Assembly (NCBI RefSeq): GCF_023499255.1 | Contig: NZ_CP092183.1 | Location: forward strand, 1,743,501 to 1,807,500 | DNA length: 64,000 nucleotides | Source: Couchioplanes caeruleus | Lineage (GTDB): Bacteria; Actinomycetota; Actinomycetes; Mycobacteriales; Micromonosporaceae | Direction of reading: 5' to 3' | Part shown: one piece after another, positions 1,874 to 23,071 of the stretch | How positions within the stretch are numbered: position 1 is the stretch's first letter | Layout: each line of letters starts with the position of its first letter | Notes under the pieces: model-generated | The model's database searches: none | What the model saw: only the letters and a program-made list of their open reading frames with translations | Told to the model about the DNA's origin: nothing | Made by a program: the position numbers and the translations under genes

Positions 1874-3469
1874 TTACCGCCCCAGATCGGCGAGGATGCG
1901 CCGCGCGGCGTTGTGGCCGGCCGCGCCGATGACGCTGCCCGCCGGGTGGGCGCCCGCCGAGCCCGCGTACAGGCCGTCGAGGCCCGTCGCGTACGGCATG
2001 CGCTGGTCGAACGCGACCGTGTTGTCGACGTGGTGGATGTGGCCGCCGCTGATGCCGAAGTGCCGCTCGATGCCCGGCGGGGTCAGCGGCATCATGTCCG
2101 CGACCAGGTCCGACGTGCCGGGGGCGTACCGGTCGACGATCTCCAGCAGCCGCGTCACGTAGCCGGGCAGCGCCTCGTCCCACGTGGTGCCGGCCAGCTC
2201 GTACGGCACCGACTGCACGAACAGCGCCGAGGAGTGGTGCCCGGCATCGTCCTGCAGCGACGGGTCGACGGTGGTGTGCAGGTACCACTCGATAGTCGGC
2301 TCGGCGGGCAGACGCCCGGCCTGGACGTCGGCCCACATGCCCCGCAGCGCCGCCATCGGCGAATCCGACTCCGCCGGCCCGGCGAGGCCCGCGGAGCCCG
2401 GCAGGAGGTGGATGGTCGAGCCGAACGGGGAGGGTGCGTCCGCGGGGAGGCAGGAGAAGCGCGGAAGGCCGGACAGCGCCAGGTTGAGCTTGAGCGTGGT
2501 GCCGGGCCGCTTGACCGCGGCCATGCGCGACGTCAGTTCCTCCGCGAGCGCGCCCTCGGGCACGAGCGACATCAGCTGGTACGGGTCACAGGCACCCAGG
2601 ACGACCCGGGCCTCCACGGAGCGTCCGTCGGCCAGGGCGACCCCGGTGGCAGCCCCCTGGGTGACGGTCACGGCGCTCACCGGCGTACCCGTGAAGATCT
2701 GGGCCCCCGCGGCGCGGGCCGCGCCGGCGAAGGTGCGCGAGACCGTGCCCATGCCGCCGGCCGCGATCATCCACGTGCCGTCCGCACCCGGCAGGCGGCA
2801 CATGTTGTGCACGAGGAAGTTATGGCCGGTGCCGGGGTCGTCGGGGCCCGCGTTCAGCCCGGACAGGCCGTCGGTCACCGCGTACATGCTCATCAGCAGT
2901 TCGCTCTTGAACCCGAAGCGCTGCAGGTAGTCGGCGACCGAGCCGCGGACGAGGTCGACGAAGGTGCTCTGCAGCTGCGGCCGGATGTGCCGGTCGGCGA
3001 TCTCCTCGACGGAGCCGGGCTCCTGCAGCCAGGCGGGTGCGAGATCGGCGCGCAGCGCGGCGATCTCGACCTGCAGCGCCTCGTCGGCGGCGATGTCGCG
3101 CGGCGAGAAGAACCGCTCCATCTGCGCGCGCGTGGCCTCGCGGTCGGTGCCGAACAGCAGATAGGGCGAGCCGGGGCCGCCGGGCGTGGGCAGGAAGTAG
3201 TGCGGGTCGCGACGCAGCACGGGGATGTCGACGTCGAGCGTCGCCAGCAGCTCGGGCGGCATCAGGCCGAGCAGGTACGACCCCGTGGACTGCCCGAGGC
3301 CGGGCACCTTGCCGAACGGGTGCTCGGTGCGGGTGGCGCCGCCGATCACGTCGGCCGCCTCGAGCACGACGACGTCGAGGCCGGCGCGGGCGAGCAGCAC
3401 GGCGGAGACCAGGCCGTTGTGGCCGGAGCCGATGATCACGACGTCGGCGCGGGGCGGCAGAGCGTTCAT
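1874..3469 (-). CDS. Phytoene-dehydrogenase-like FAD-dependent oxidoreductase
   Basis: A 531-residue flavoprotein. The N-terminus carries a classical dinucleotide-binding fold, DVVIIGSGHNGLVSAVLLARAGLDVVVLEA (GxGxxG followed by a terminal acidic residue), and the C-terminus has GLYAGSAGAHPAGSVIGAAGHNAA, the second FAD contact typical of CrtI/phytoene-desaturase-like enzymes. Length fits the CrtI/COG1233 group. No carotenoid genes surround it, so a pigment role is not supported; many actinomycete paralogues are unassigned oxidoreductases. The start is the ATG at 3469 just before the FAD-binding strand; upstream in-frame codons encode an atypical Arg/Gly-rich extension. It is divergent from the MMPL gene across a 216-bp spacer that presumably holds both promoters. 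Confidence 0.85.
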   Translation of the reverse strand: MNALPPRADVVIIGSGHNGLVSAVLLARAGLDVVVLEAADVIGGATRTEHPFGKVPGLGQSTGSYLLGLMPPELLATLDVDIPVLRRDPHYFLPTPGGPGSPYLLFGTDREATRAQMERFFSPRDIAADEALQVEIAALRADLAPAWLQEPGSVEEIADRHIRPQLQSTFVDLVRGSVADYLQRFGFKSELLMSMYAVTDGLSGLNAGPDDPGTGHNFLVHNMCRLPGADGTWMIAAGGMGTVSRTFAGAARAAGAQIFTGTPVSAVTVTQGAATGVALADGRSVEARVVLGACDPYQLMSLVPEGALAEELTSRMAAVKRPGTTLKLNLALSGLPRFSCLPADAPSPFGSTIHLLPGSAGLAGPAESDSPMAALRGMWADVQAGRLPAEPTIEWYLHTTVDPSLQDDAGHHSSALFVQSVPYELAGTTWDEALPGYVTRLLEIVDRYAPGTSDLVADMMPLTPPGIERHFGISGGHIHHVDNTVAFDQRMPYATGLDGLYAGSAGAHPAGSVIGAAGHNAARRILADLGR

Positions 3470-3685
3470 GAGGGCCGACTCTAGCGCGCCGATCGGCGGA
3501 CAGTTCCCCCCAAATCGGTGCCGCCTCGGCGCTGTCCGGCCGACGGCCACCGGGTGCTTTCCGCCTGTCGCGGGTACGACAGGGATGTGGGCGTGGCGGT
3601 CGTCATAGTCGGCGCCATCGAGCCCCGTTCACCCCCTACGGTGAGCGGCGTCTATGCGTAGCGGCTGGGTGCGGGAGGCGGGCGG

Positions 3686-5833
3686 ATGTTCGGCTGGTGG
3701 GGCAGGGCGGTCGTCCGCGTGCGCTGGTGGGTGGTTGCCGCCGCCCTGGCGCTCGTCGTGGCCGGGGCGACCTGGGGCGCCGGTGTCTTCGGCGCGCTCA
3801 CCGGCGGCGGGTACGACGACCCCGGCAGCGAGTCCAACCGCGCCGCCGCGGCGATCTCCCAGCACCTCGGCCAGCGCAACCCCGACCTGCTCGTGCTCTG
3901 GTCCAGTGACACCGCGACCGTGACGGATGAGTCCTTCCGCGGAGCCGTCTCCGCCGCGATCGGCCGGATCCGGGCACAGGCCGACGTCGAGAATGTCGCC
4001 GGCTACACCGACCCCGACGCCTCACCGGCCCTGGTCAGTACCGACAAGCACGCCACGTACGCGGCCGTCCACCTCAAGGCCGGCGGCGAGGACGGCAAGG
4101 CGGCCGCGTACCACCGGCTGGAGCCGGAACTCGCCGCGCCCGGGCTGGAGACCGAGGTCGGCGGCCTGGTCGCCTTCACCGATCAGGCCAACGAGCAGAC
4201 CAAGAAGGACATCACGCGCGCCGAGATCTTCTCGCTGCCGGTGCTGTTCGTGCTGCTCGTGCTGATCTTCCGGGGCCTGATCGCCGCCCTCTCGCCGCTG
4301 CTCGTCGGCGGCATCGCGATCCTCGGCGCGTTCGTCGCGATCCGGGGGCTCACCTACCTCACCGACATCTCGGTGTTCGCGATCAACGTCATCACCCTGC
4401 TCGGGCTCGGCATGGCGGTGGACTACTCGCTGTTCATCGTCAGCCGCTTCCGCGAGGAGCTGGCGCGCGGCAACGACGTGCCCACGGCCATCCGCATCAC
4501 GGTGGCGACGGCCGGCCGTACGGTCATGGTCTCCGGGCTGACGATCGTCCTCGCGCTCTCCAGCCTGCTGATCTTTCCGCAGCCGTTCCTGGGCGGCCTG
4601 GCCATCGGCGGCATGGCCGCCGTGCTGGTCGCGATGCTCGCCGCCCTGACGGTCCTGCCGGCGGTGCTGTCCCTGCTCGGCCACCGCATCGACAAGCTGC
4701 GCATCCCGCTGCCGCAGCGCCGGCGTGGCGACGAGGCGGTCGGGGCATGGGAGCGCCTCGCACGCAGCGTCATGCGGCGTCCCGTCCTGTACGTCGTCGG
4801 CGTGCTCGTCGTCCTCGCGGCGTTCGCGGCGCCGTTCCTGCGGGTCGAGTTCGGCGGCTTCGACGAGCGCGTCCTGCCGCCCGGCAGCGCCGCCCGGGTG
4901 GTGGGGGAGCGGCTCGACGCGGAGTTCCCCGGTGGCGGCCAGGACCCGATCTCGGTCTTCGTCCGGGGCCCCGCCGGCGACCTGGCTCAGCGCATCGCGG
5001 CGCTGCCGGACGTCGGCGGCGCGACCGTCACCGCCCAGCGCGACGCCGCCTCGCTGATCACGGTCACCTACCCGGCGGACCTGCCGAACGCCGACGCCCG
5101 CCGGATCGTCTCCGGCATCCGCGACCTCACTCCGCCACCGGGCGCCGAGGTGCTCGTCGGCGGGCGGCCCGCCGTCGACCTCGACCTGCTGGAGAGCCTC
5201 GCCGCGCGGCTGCCGTACATGGCGCTGATCATGGCGGTCGCCACGATCGTGCTGCTCTTCCTCGCGTTCGGCTCGGTGCTGCTGCCGATCAAGGCCGTCC
5301 TGATGAACCTGGTGTCGATCGGCGCGTCGTTCGGCGTGGTGGTCTGGATCTTCCAGGAGGGCCACTTCGAGAACGTGCTGCGCTTCGAGTCGACCGGCTA
5401 CATCGAGCCGAGCAACATGATCCTCGTGCTCGCCGTGCTGTTCGGGCTGGCCACCGACTACGAGGTGTTCCTGCTCTCCCGCGTCCGCGAGGAGTGGGAC
5501 CGCACCGGGGACAACACCGCCTCCGTCGCGACCGGCATGCAGCACACCGGCGGCATCATCACCGCGGCCGCGCTGCTGCTCATCACCGTCGTGGCGGGCT
5601 TCGCCACCGGTGGCGTGACCGTCATCAAGACCATCGGCGTCGGCATGATCGTCGCGATCGTGGTGGACGCGACGCTGGTCAGGGCGCTGCTCGTTCCGGC
5701 GACGATGCGGCTGCTGGGTCGCTGGAACTGGTGGGCGCCGGGCTTCCTGAGCCGCTTCTACTCCCGGTACGGGATCCACGAGACGCCGGAGCCGCCGGCG
5801 CCCGCTCCGCAGCGGCGTTCCGTGCCCGCCTGA
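3686..5833 (+). CDS. MMPL-family (RND superfamily) membrane transporter
   Basis: A 715-residue polytopic protein with two halves, each made of a first transmembrane helix, a large extracytoplasmic loop and a cluster of about five helices. The first half ends in GLGMAVDYSLFIVSRFREE and the second in FGLATDYEVFLLSRVREE, the conserved Asp-Tyr pairs that form the proton-relay site in MMPL/RND transporters. Length matches actinobacterial MMPL proteins. A GGGAGG ribosome binding site at 3673-3678 supports the ATG at 3686. Mycobacterial relatives export lipids; other actinomycete members export lipids, pigments or antibiotics, and nothing here fixes a cargo. Its last 155 bp are overlapped antisense by the BrkB gene. 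Confidence 0.9.
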   Translation: MFGWWGRAVVRVRWWVVAAALALVVAGATWGAGVFGALTGGGYDDPGSESNRAAAAISQHLGQRNPDLLVLWSSDTATVTDESFRGAVSAAIGRIRAQADVENVAGYTDPDASPALVSTDKHATYAAVHLKAGGEDGKAAAYHRLEPELAAPGLETEVGGLVAFTDQANEQTKKDITRAEIFSLPVLFVLLVLIFRGLIAALSPLLVGGIAILGAFVAIRGLTYLTDISVFAINVITLLGLGMAVDYSLFIVSRFREELARGNDVPTAIRITVATAGRTVMVSGLTIVLALSSLLIFPQPFLGGLAIGGMAAVLVAMLAALTVLPAVLSLLGHRIDKLRIPLPQRRRGDEAVGAWERLARSVMRRPVLYVVGVLVVLAAFAAPFLRVEFGGFDERVLPPGSAARVVGERLDAEFPGGGQDPISVFVRGPAGDLAQRIAALPDVGGATVTAQRDAASLITVTYPADLPNADARRIVSGIRDLTPPPGAEVLVGGRPAVDLDLLESLAARLPYMALIMAVATIVLLFLAFGSVLLPIKAVLMNLVSIGASFGVVVWIFQEGHFENVLRFESTGYIEPSNMILVLAVLFGLATDYEVFLLSRVREEWDRTGDNTASVATGMQHTGGIITAAALLLITVVAGFATGGVTVIKTIGVGMIVAIVVDATLVRALLVPATMRLLGRWNWWAPGFLSRFYSRYGIHETPEPPAPAPQRRSVPA

Positions 5834-21189: not shown

Positions 21190-21684
21190 GTCTCTCGGGC
21201 CGCGCCATGCCGGCGACGGCTTGCCCGGCCGGTCGCTGCGGCGCCGGTCGCTGTGCCGGACCGTCGCGCCGCAGGCCGGCCCCGGCCCCGCTCGGTGCGG
21301 CCGCCCGTGCCGTGACGTTCGCCGGGCCGTGACGTTCCGCCCGTGCCGTGACGTTCGCCGGGCCGTGACGTTCCGACAGCACCGAGATGTCCCCCGTGCC
21401 GTGACGTTCGCCCGGGCCGTAAGTGTTTCGCCCCGGCCGTGACTTTCGGCCAGGCCATGACTCCGCCAGGCCATGACTCCGCCAGGCCATGACTCCGCCA
21501 GGCCATGAGTCCGCCCGGCCATGAGTCCGCCCGGTTCGTGACTTCCCGTCCGGGGCGTGGCGTTTCGCGACGCGGGGCCGGACCGCGATGGCGCCTGCCC
21601 ACCGTCGTCCTCCGTGACGCCGCCATGCGATGTCGGTCCGTCGCCGACGCCAGGTGCCGCTGTCGGGTCACCTCGCTGCGGAGA
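21190..21684. other. Intergenic region with repeats between SDR and merR
   Basis: No gene seen. Most of it is the tandem array 21309-21570 between the convergent SDR and merR genes. No clear intrinsic terminator. Confidence 0.65.
21309..21570. repeat. Tandem array of about thirteen 16-19 bp units
   Basis: Head-to-tail units of the forms GCCGTGACGTTCGCCGG and GCCATGACTCCGCCAG. Three copies of the latter (21454, 21470, 21486) are identical, followed by two GCCATGAGTCCGCCCG copies (21502, 21518). Earlier copies are more divergent. Confidence 0.85.
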
Positions 21685-22083
21685 TCAGGGCGCCGAGGGT
21701 GATCGCTCGGAGTTCGGTGAGGGGTAGTAGTGGGTGGTCGCGATGTCGGGGCGGGTCTGGGTCGGGATGTCCGCGTCGTCGTCGGGGGTGAGGGTGCCGC
21801 CCAGGTCGACGATGCGGCGGTGGGCGGCCTCGAGGCGGTCCTCCAGCTTCACGATCCGGCAGGCCGCGGCGAGCGGCATGCCGTCGTTCAGGAGTTGCCT
21901 CACGCGTTCCGCCAGGAGTAGTTGGTGGCGCGAGTAGCGGCGGTGGCCGCCCCCGGAACGTTCCGGCTCGATCAGGCCGGCCGTGCCGAGGCTTCGCAGG
22001 AAGGCAGGTGTCACGCCGATCATGGCGGCGGCCCTGCCCATCGAGTACGCCGGGTAGTCGGCGTCGTCGAACGGGGTGTTCAT
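21685..22083 (-). CDS. MerR-family transcriptional regulator
   Basis: A 132-residue regulator with a MerR helix-turn-helix at about 14-85: YSMGRAAAMIGVTPAFLRSLGTAGLI, then RSGGGHRRYSRHQLLLAERVRQLL. A short helical stretch (VKLEDRLEAAHRRI) could dimerise; there is no effector domain or Cys metal site. The last ~30 residues are polar. ATG 22083 is preceded by GGAAGG. Upstream lies an unusual structured leader (22111-22300) with short translatable frames and a 12-bp hairpin. The gene is divergent from the permease/glutamylation locus about 1 kb away and might regulate it (inference). Confidence 0.87.
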   Translation of the reverse strand: MNTPFDDADYPAYSMGRAAAMIGVTPAFLRSLGTAGLIEPERSGGGHRRYSRHQLLLAERVRQLLNDGMPLAAACRIVKLEDRLEAAHRRIVDLGGTLTPDDDADIPTQTRPDIATTHYYPSPNSERSPSAP

Positions 22084-22113
22084 GGTGCCTTCCGGGGAGG
22101 TCCTGCAGACAAT

Positions 22114-22144
22114 CCAAGGCCCCGGCGGGTTACCGGGGCCTTGG
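22114..22144 (-). terminator. 12-bp hairpin in merR leader (possible attenuator)
   Basis: Perfect inverted repeat CCAAGGCCCCGG (22114-22125) / CCGGGGCCTTGG (22133-22144) with a 7-nt loop, 30 bp upstream of merR. On the transcribed strand it is followed by ATTGTCT, a weak U-stretch, as in many high-GC terminators. An upstream leader segment (AAGGCCTTG, 22176-22184 on the minus strand) can pair with the hairpin's first arm, giving a possible antiterminator. Confidence 0.5.
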
Positions 22145-22197
22145 CTGTTCAATTCTGCGCCGACCGTCGTCGGCAAGGCCTTACCGCCTGCGTGCCG

Positions 22198-22224
22198 CTA
22201 GCGGACGGCCTGAGTGTTGGGCAT
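22198..22224 (-). CDS. Putative leader peptide MPNTQAVR upstream of merR
   Basis: An eight-codon frame, ATG 22224 to TAG 22198. It is preceded by GAGGTGATC, complementary to nine bases of the 16S rRNA 3' end, seven bases before the ATG. It ends about 14 bases before the possible antiterminator segment. A second frame of 33 codons begins at an ATA (22282) five bases after a perfect AAGGAGG and ends with TAA at 22181, at the edge of that segment. Translation is not proven. Confidence 0.4.
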   Translation of the reverse strand: MPNTQAVR

Positions 22225-22321
22225 CGGCTGCGATCACCTCTCGTCGGGTCGGGGACGTGGCGATTTCGCGTTGCTGCGGTATCTCGTCCTCCTTAACCAA
22301 CTCAGCGTCTGTGCCAGTTGC

Positions 22322-22346
22322 GTTGTCGGCTGTGCGTGCCGACAAC
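22322..22346. promoter_or_regulatory. 9-bp inverted repeat upstream of merR
   Basis: GTTGTCGGC (22322-22330) and GCCGACAAC (22338-22346) with a 7-nt spacer, just downstream of TTGACA (22373-22368) on the minus strand. It may be a regulator operator or an RNA stem at the 5' end of the merR message. Confidence 0.45.
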
Positions 22347-23071
22347 CCCGATGTTAGGCCCGTTCGCTGTCAATTTCTAGACTCGCCGCTGTAGATTTTC
22401 TAGCGTGTTGAGTAGGGAACCGACCTTCGTCGAGTAGATGCCCCGGAGGTTCCGTCGCTGCGCCGGATGAGGGTGGCGAGGTATCGCAAGCAGTCGAAGC
22501 CCGGGTCGCGGCGGGAACCGACGTGGCAGCTGGTGACTCGCAGCTGCGGCAATCACGCGAGTCGCAGCGATGGTGGGCGTGGTGGTTCCGGCGAGCGCGG
22601 CGCGGCGGCGAGCGCGGCGTTCCGCGAGGGCGTGCGACTGTTCGCGCGGTAGCGGGCGGGGCTGCCATAGCGGTAGGTGCGGCGGTGCGGGGCGGGCGCA
22701 TGGCACGGCTGTCTGCCGTGTCGAGAGAGAGGTGACCGCGCCCCGCGCCGCCGCGGGATGGGAGCCGGTGTGGTGCTCCCCGGTGTTCGCGATGCCTGCC
22801 GAGGGCTCGCGCGCTTGCTCGTGCGCCGATCCGGGTGGTTCGCCCGGTTGCGCCGGTAGCGTCAGAACACCGGCAGGGCTTTGCCTGATCGGCGGCGGGC
22901 TGTGCCGCGCCGCGCTTTCCGGTGCCCTGTCATGGCTACGAGTGTGCGGGTGGCGTACGAGGGGCGGCAACGCAATTAACACGGCTCATTGACGCGCGTA
23001 ACACCAGGGGGAGATCATCACCGAACGGCGGTGGCCCAGGTCACAGTCGCCCCTCGGTCTAGGGAGCCTTC

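Follow-up and report, generated by a model that had tools for sequence, protein, structure and literature searches.

A structured, probably regulatory RNA upstream of merR in Couchioplanes caeruleus and its sister RNA in other actinobacterial families

In ribosome-controlled attenuators such as those of whiB7 and erm, short frames are combined with a Shine-Dalgarno-like tract and a terminator-like hairpin, while infC-type leaders are marked by a rare start codon. Rli55, a riboswitch-containing small RNA, is leader-like and terminator-ended and can act without a downstream gene. BldC is described as a MerR-related protein of 68 residues that lacks a classical effector domain (PMC5859096). The locus analyzed here, a merR gene and its leader, lies in a stretch of 64,000 nucleotides of Couchioplanes caeruleus DNA (the window), and the leader had been read in the initial annotation as a translation-coupled attenuator. 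We favor a different reading, to which we assign a probability of roughly 0.55: the merR leader would be a regulatory RNA, structured and probably non-coding, that is made from a promoter of its own, controls passage into merR and also exists in stand-alone copies. This reading is based on the conservation of the leader, its covarying hairpins, a shared promoter box, the linkage to merR, and the survival of the RNA in places where merR is absent.

All features named by the initial annotation were recovered in place on the minus strand. Together with the other elements of the locus they are, from the promoter box to the gene:

22373 to 22398, minus strand: promoter box AAATCT-N12-CTAGAAAT, dyad-like
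22322 to 22346, minus strand: 5′ hairpin GTTGTCGGC/GCCGACAAC, a perfect inverted repeat near the inferred transcript start
22294 to 22288, minus strand: AAGGAGG, read from the sequence
22251 to 22292, minus strand: helix Psd, in which a AGGAGGACG-type strand (22292-22285) pairs with CGTCCCC (22257-22251) and which contains the Shine-Dalgarno-like tract
22232 to 22283, minus strand: candidate pseudoknot, GATACC (22283-22278) with GGTGATC (22238-22232), recognized by eye
22282 to 22280, minus strand: ATA codon opening a frame of 33 codons that ends with TAA at 22183-22181
22224 to 22198, minus strand: MPNTQAVR frame of eight codons, preceded by GAGGTGATC at 22240-22232
22177 to 22210, minus strand: hairpin P3, overlapping the MPNTQAVR frame at its end and AAGGCCTTG in part
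22183 to 22175, minus strand: AAGGCCTTG
22159 to 22174, minus strand: hairpin P4, GCCGAC/GTCGGC
22114 to 22144, minus strand: hairpin T, a terminator-like perfect 12-bp hairpin with no T run after it
21685 to 22083, minus strand: merR, encoding a MerR-type regulator of 132 amino acids (PF13411, E 3.9e-14) and beginning 30 nt past hairpin T

As judged by eye, the 5′ hairpin has counterparts in relatives, and the candidate pseudoknot would join the ATA start to the 16S rRNA match; the sister RNAs described below carry GACACC and GGTGGTC at apparently equivalent places, again by eye. The window leader occurs once in its genome, a single contig of 8,421,026 bases. An amino-acid permease gene (PF13520; 23072-24601, plus strand) is oriented divergently to merR at a distance of about 990 nt, and the minus strand at 21300-21530, just downstream of merR, contains runs of short repeats, first of the GGCGGACTCATGGCC type and then of the GAACGTCACGGC type.

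RNAs with the core CGTCCCC..CGACAA..GGTGATCGC are referred to as type A. This core was present in all 67 genomes of the genus, which we infer to be Actinoplanes in the wide sense. Allowing up to three mismatches, the core pattern gave 69 matches, two of which are extra places with three mismatches, versus seven for a reversed control pattern. Among 150 Micromonosporaceae genomes from 44 genera, 16 genomes and two genera had the core at up to two mismatches. The merR gene adjoins the type A leader in 64 of the 67 genus genomes.

The leader at 22340-22103 folds with a z-score of -4.31, and none of 200 shuffles was equally stable. Its secondary structure also has covariation support in 66 distinct type A leaders, compared with 500 shuffles in each case. 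The pairing of P3 was reached by no shuffle, the double changes of its five inner pairs by two and those of the next pair by none, while for P4 neither pairing nor double changes were reached by any. Hairpin T, the terminator-like hairpin that precedes merR, was paired in 791 of 792 cells with 19 double-changed cells, again matched by 0/500 shuffles. Helix Psd is present both in the type A consensus fold and in the fold of the window leader; since it is nearly invariant, covariation neither supports nor refutes it. The initial annotation had called for an alignment of the leader among relatives to look for covariation of both of its stems; the terminator-like stem covaries, and the core is present in 67/67 genomes. 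A further pairing, of GAGGUGAU with AUCACUC, was dropped, as changes in its second strand appeared by eye to be uncompensated.

A longer sister RNA of 236 positions, here called type M, is located before related merR genes of other genera and is present in two copies in the genome of the window. It follows the type A plan, with promoter box, 5′ domain, purine tract, branched core, hairpin T and merR in this order. In an alignment of 43 copies, which omits 3 of 46 sequences (L139, L146 and L147, with L146 cut by a contig end), 96.9% of the cells pair, and all five covariation measures were reached by 0/500 shuffles. In a larger alignment of 53 sequences from several families, which was fitted to the model and leans towards it (A4), 40 of 58 pairs are double-changed, with 248 such cells versus 74.5 after shuffling, and pairing amounts to 94.6% versus 36-44% in slid controls. 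Helix P1, by which the core of type M is closed next to T, has the Shine-Dalgarno-like purine tract as its first strand, and in the 53 sequences P1 itself changes on both sides.

With strict patterns the sister RNA seemed to be restricted to Micromonosporaceae: the search gave 107 stretches, of which the 80 among the matches listed belong to genera that we take to be Micromonosporaceae, and the strict pattern was found in 1 of 296 class genomes (G000). This restriction was overturned by covariance-model matches in other families. At E ≤0.001, hits of the covariance model R1 were obtained in 80 of 150 genomes of the family, representing 28 of 44 genera; this count includes a tail of weak hits. 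Across the class, R1 hits occurred in 20 of 118 genomes, reaching E ≤1e-10 in 17, and the families concerned are f1, f18, f19, f20 and f21; the other 98, including the Micromonosporaceae genome G003, gave no R1 match. Matches to R1 below about 35 bits were mostly a palindromic hairpin and were disregarded. A distant DNA search with the RNA and the start of merR matched 73 plasmid records (60 from Streptomyces, 9 from Rhodococcus and 4 others); among the 20 plasmid matches listed, 19 are annotated with a MerR regulator and one record is unannotated. No match was obtained in the phage records searched.

Several particulars of these loci were recorded alongside. Contig 1 of genome G248 (9,170,506 bases) has four sister RNAs, at 113454, 165898, 494788 and 8998225, all towards the contig ends. 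In one plasmid (L366, NZ_CP108584.1, locus 2870-5268), about 2.4 kb before merR, RNA included, holds no listed gene, in a gene table that is incomplete. In copies of the Streptomyces type, the RNA is preceded by CAGTA-rich repeats. Further leader types of the same layout, with poor or no R1 match, were also seen before merR in other genera (L023, L026, L094, L095 and L018-L022).

Type A and type M RNAs have the promoter box, hairpin T and a merR gene in common. R1 scores the window RNA at the correct place and strand with 17.4 bits (E 0.0023), and two other R1 searches gave no match; because the score is only this high, the two types may be analogues. Searched with the covariance models of Rfam 15, T-box included, the RNAs showed no match at E ≤1, and four weak Rfam matches fall outside the RNA and under their gathering scores. 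A T-box reading, suggested by GGGGTGGTCGCC in some relatives, was dropped because of the missing Rfam match. Our search of the literature and Rfam returned no account of this RNA, and in the main text of an Actinoplanes RNA-seq study the terms MerR, ncRNA and small RNA have no occurrence (PMC7682106).

The promoter box, in the form AAATCT-N12-STAGANWT, is common to types A and M. Within the window box, TAGAAA sits by eye 17 nt before TAACAT (22356-22351), and the two are likely a -35/-10 pair; the Actinoplanes consensus for the -10 element is given as TAnnnT (PMC7682106). Of the 67 type A leaders, 62 are preceded by the strict box. Ten genomes, selected as carriers of the RNAs, contain 25 box sites versus none for reversed controls, and all 25 precede an RNA of this layout (6 type A, 17 type M and 2 related types). 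Three of these sites are in the genome of the window: that of the window itself, one before a type M RNA with merR and one before a type M RNA without it. Among copies with at least 500 nt upstream, 59 of the 83 rows linked to merR have the box, as do 14 of the 17 rows without merR, counts that contain duplicates. At one locus (L097), a merR gene has the box with no RNA in between. The box is altered in two of the three type A loci without merR (L063 and L067, but not L087) versus 3 of 64 with merR, a hint that the MerR-type protein may read the box; the altered boxes can alternatively mean that the RNA is decaying at these loci.

The RNA was also found in places where merR is missing. Among 82 distinct type M copies, which come from 104 rows with duplicates, 68 are linked to merR and 14 are not, a share that overstates the merR-less copies because 14 places were fetched since they looked unlinked. 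In three of them (L201, L204 and L206) merR was looked for within about 620 nt, and for the remaining 11 the search extended over the entire locus fetched (L168 as L198, L151 as L197). The unlinked copies keep 71-82 of 82 near-invariant columns defined on 57 linked copies, with 12 of the 14 keeping at least 78, and 11 of the 14 retain the promoter box. At least 11 changes between presence and absence of merR are needed on the type M RNA tree; an earlier tree with duplicates required 9, three of them forced by well-supported branches. Among type A leaders, 3 of 67 (L063, L067 and L087) have no merR within 900 nt and are followed instead by a different frame, by eye a sensor histidine kinase; the type A tree needs three changes, at least two of them forced.

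These observations, together with the distances of 22 and 11 nt between hairpin T and predicted convergent frames in L195 and L196, speak for an independent small RNA gene that acts in trans, with merR reached by read-through or from an internal promoter. However, the distance from T to merR in linked type M copies is 8-73 nt with a median of 29, mostly too short for another promoter, and all 20 loci from other families have merR. We regard an independent small RNA gene as unlikely, while giving it more weight than the alternatives that follow. Two further observations concern the unlinked copies. In L194 and L199, a second small hairpin of the CCTCGTC..GACGAGG type follows right after T, where linked copies have the ribosome site of merR; this hairpin, recognized by eye, is perhaps a remnant. 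L195 and L197 (upstream) and L203 (downstream) are near one type of frame (MDLDDVLL..PVDAV..) that by eye looks like a phosphatase-like regulator.

In the attenuator originally proposed, the choice between an antiterminator and T would depend on translation, either of the AUA frame or of MPNTQAVR. The leaders examined do have a strong Shine-Dalgarno-like tract, and ATA is conserved in 64 of 65 parsed leaders, with ATC in one; the two unparsed leaders of the 67 (L069 and L081) both have ATA by eye. In 48 of the 65 leaders, the window not among them, the ATA frame stops just before T at a shared TGA (in AGAAYTGA). Since the ATA and the common TGA are conserved, the leader could still be translated. 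Nevertheless, the ATA frame showed no codon-position bias: in 60 of the 67 sequences (7 left out), the synonymous share of changes was 0.309 versus 0.280 expected. Conservation of the eight-codon MPNTQAVR frame held in part, the frame being intact in 63 of 67 leaders and broken in L044, L050, L061 and L084. Its synonymous share (11/28 = 0.393 versus 0.259) is a small excess within a covarying stem, and by eye ATG is missing from this site in L017, a type A leader from a different genus.

The postulated alternative pairing with the terminator arm turned out not to be conserved, as four of the 67 leaders, including that of the window, contained a complement of at least 7 bases, versus 2.0 expected from shuffled spacers. 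In the minimum-energy fold of the window leader, the GGCC of the antiterminator-complement stretch closes a different hairpin. Moreover, the Shine-Dalgarno-like tract can be base-paired in both the consensus and the window fold, and the start is absent from the sister RNAs, which by eye have ACACC at the position of the type A AUACC. On present evidence, the merR leader thus does not appear to be a peptide-coupled attenuator, and we consider this alternative improbable. What stands of the initial annotation is a conserved RNA leader with a covarying terminator-like hairpin directly upstream of merR, while ribosome control is unsupported. Control at the DNA level only, by a conserved operator and a terminator with the intervening stretch kept for protein-DNA binding, can hardly be right: the box is conserved and stands before the L097 merR that lacks the RNA, but DNA binding would not be expected to produce compensatory changes in so many helices.

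Returning to the structured regulatory RNA that we prefer, the leader would fold during transcription and hairpin T would halt much of it; as no T run follows, T may not be a terminator. Through some ligand, protein or RNA, the fold would set the share of polymerases that pass into merR about 30 nt onward. The MerR-type protein is predicted to be the likely reader of the promoter box, which would close a loop, and copies without merR might function as RNAs themselves, as a decoy or a trans RNA. The simplest model fitting all observations would be an aptamer-like RNA governing passage past T into merR.

More tentatively, and at odds below even, types A and M may represent an unnamed actinobacterial class of non-coding RNA that forms a module with a dedicated MerR-type protein. 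In such a module the protein would read the box, the RNA would gate the gene of the protein, and the RNA could outlive the gene and act alone. The module would be spread over the chromosomes of at least five families and over Streptomyces plasmids, with the window RNA as a divergent branch. The L097 locus and the altered boxes led us to judge it slightly less probable. An RNA of 236 positions with a near-invariant core, present in five families and on plasmids of Streptomyces and others and matching nothing in Rfam 15, would be a new RNA class, and would account for the control of small MerR-type genes that form a multi-copy family. The stand-alone copies of this RNA raise the question of whether the leader of a gene can turn into an independent RNA.

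Compared with the described systems, the merR leader has a tract, short frames and a terminator-like hairpin in common with the whiB7 and erm attenuators, but it shows neither a codon signal nor a conserved antiterminator. With infC-type leaders it shares a conserved AUA well spaced from AAGGAGG, although here the AUA may be base-paired and by eye is replaced by ACA in the sister RNAs. The protein resembles BldC as a short MerR-type protein, but has 132 amino acids, and its binding to the box is a prediction. In riboswitch-type leaders with a terminator platform, too, a highly conserved 5′ RNA fold stands ahead of a G+C-rich hairpin and a gene, whereas in the present case there is one type of downstream gene, some copies have no gene, Rfam gives no match and the ligand is postulated. 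A bound protein or ligand is similarly a postulate when the comparison is made with Rli55, with which the merR-leader RNA shares its leader-like form, its terminator-like end and its geneless copies.
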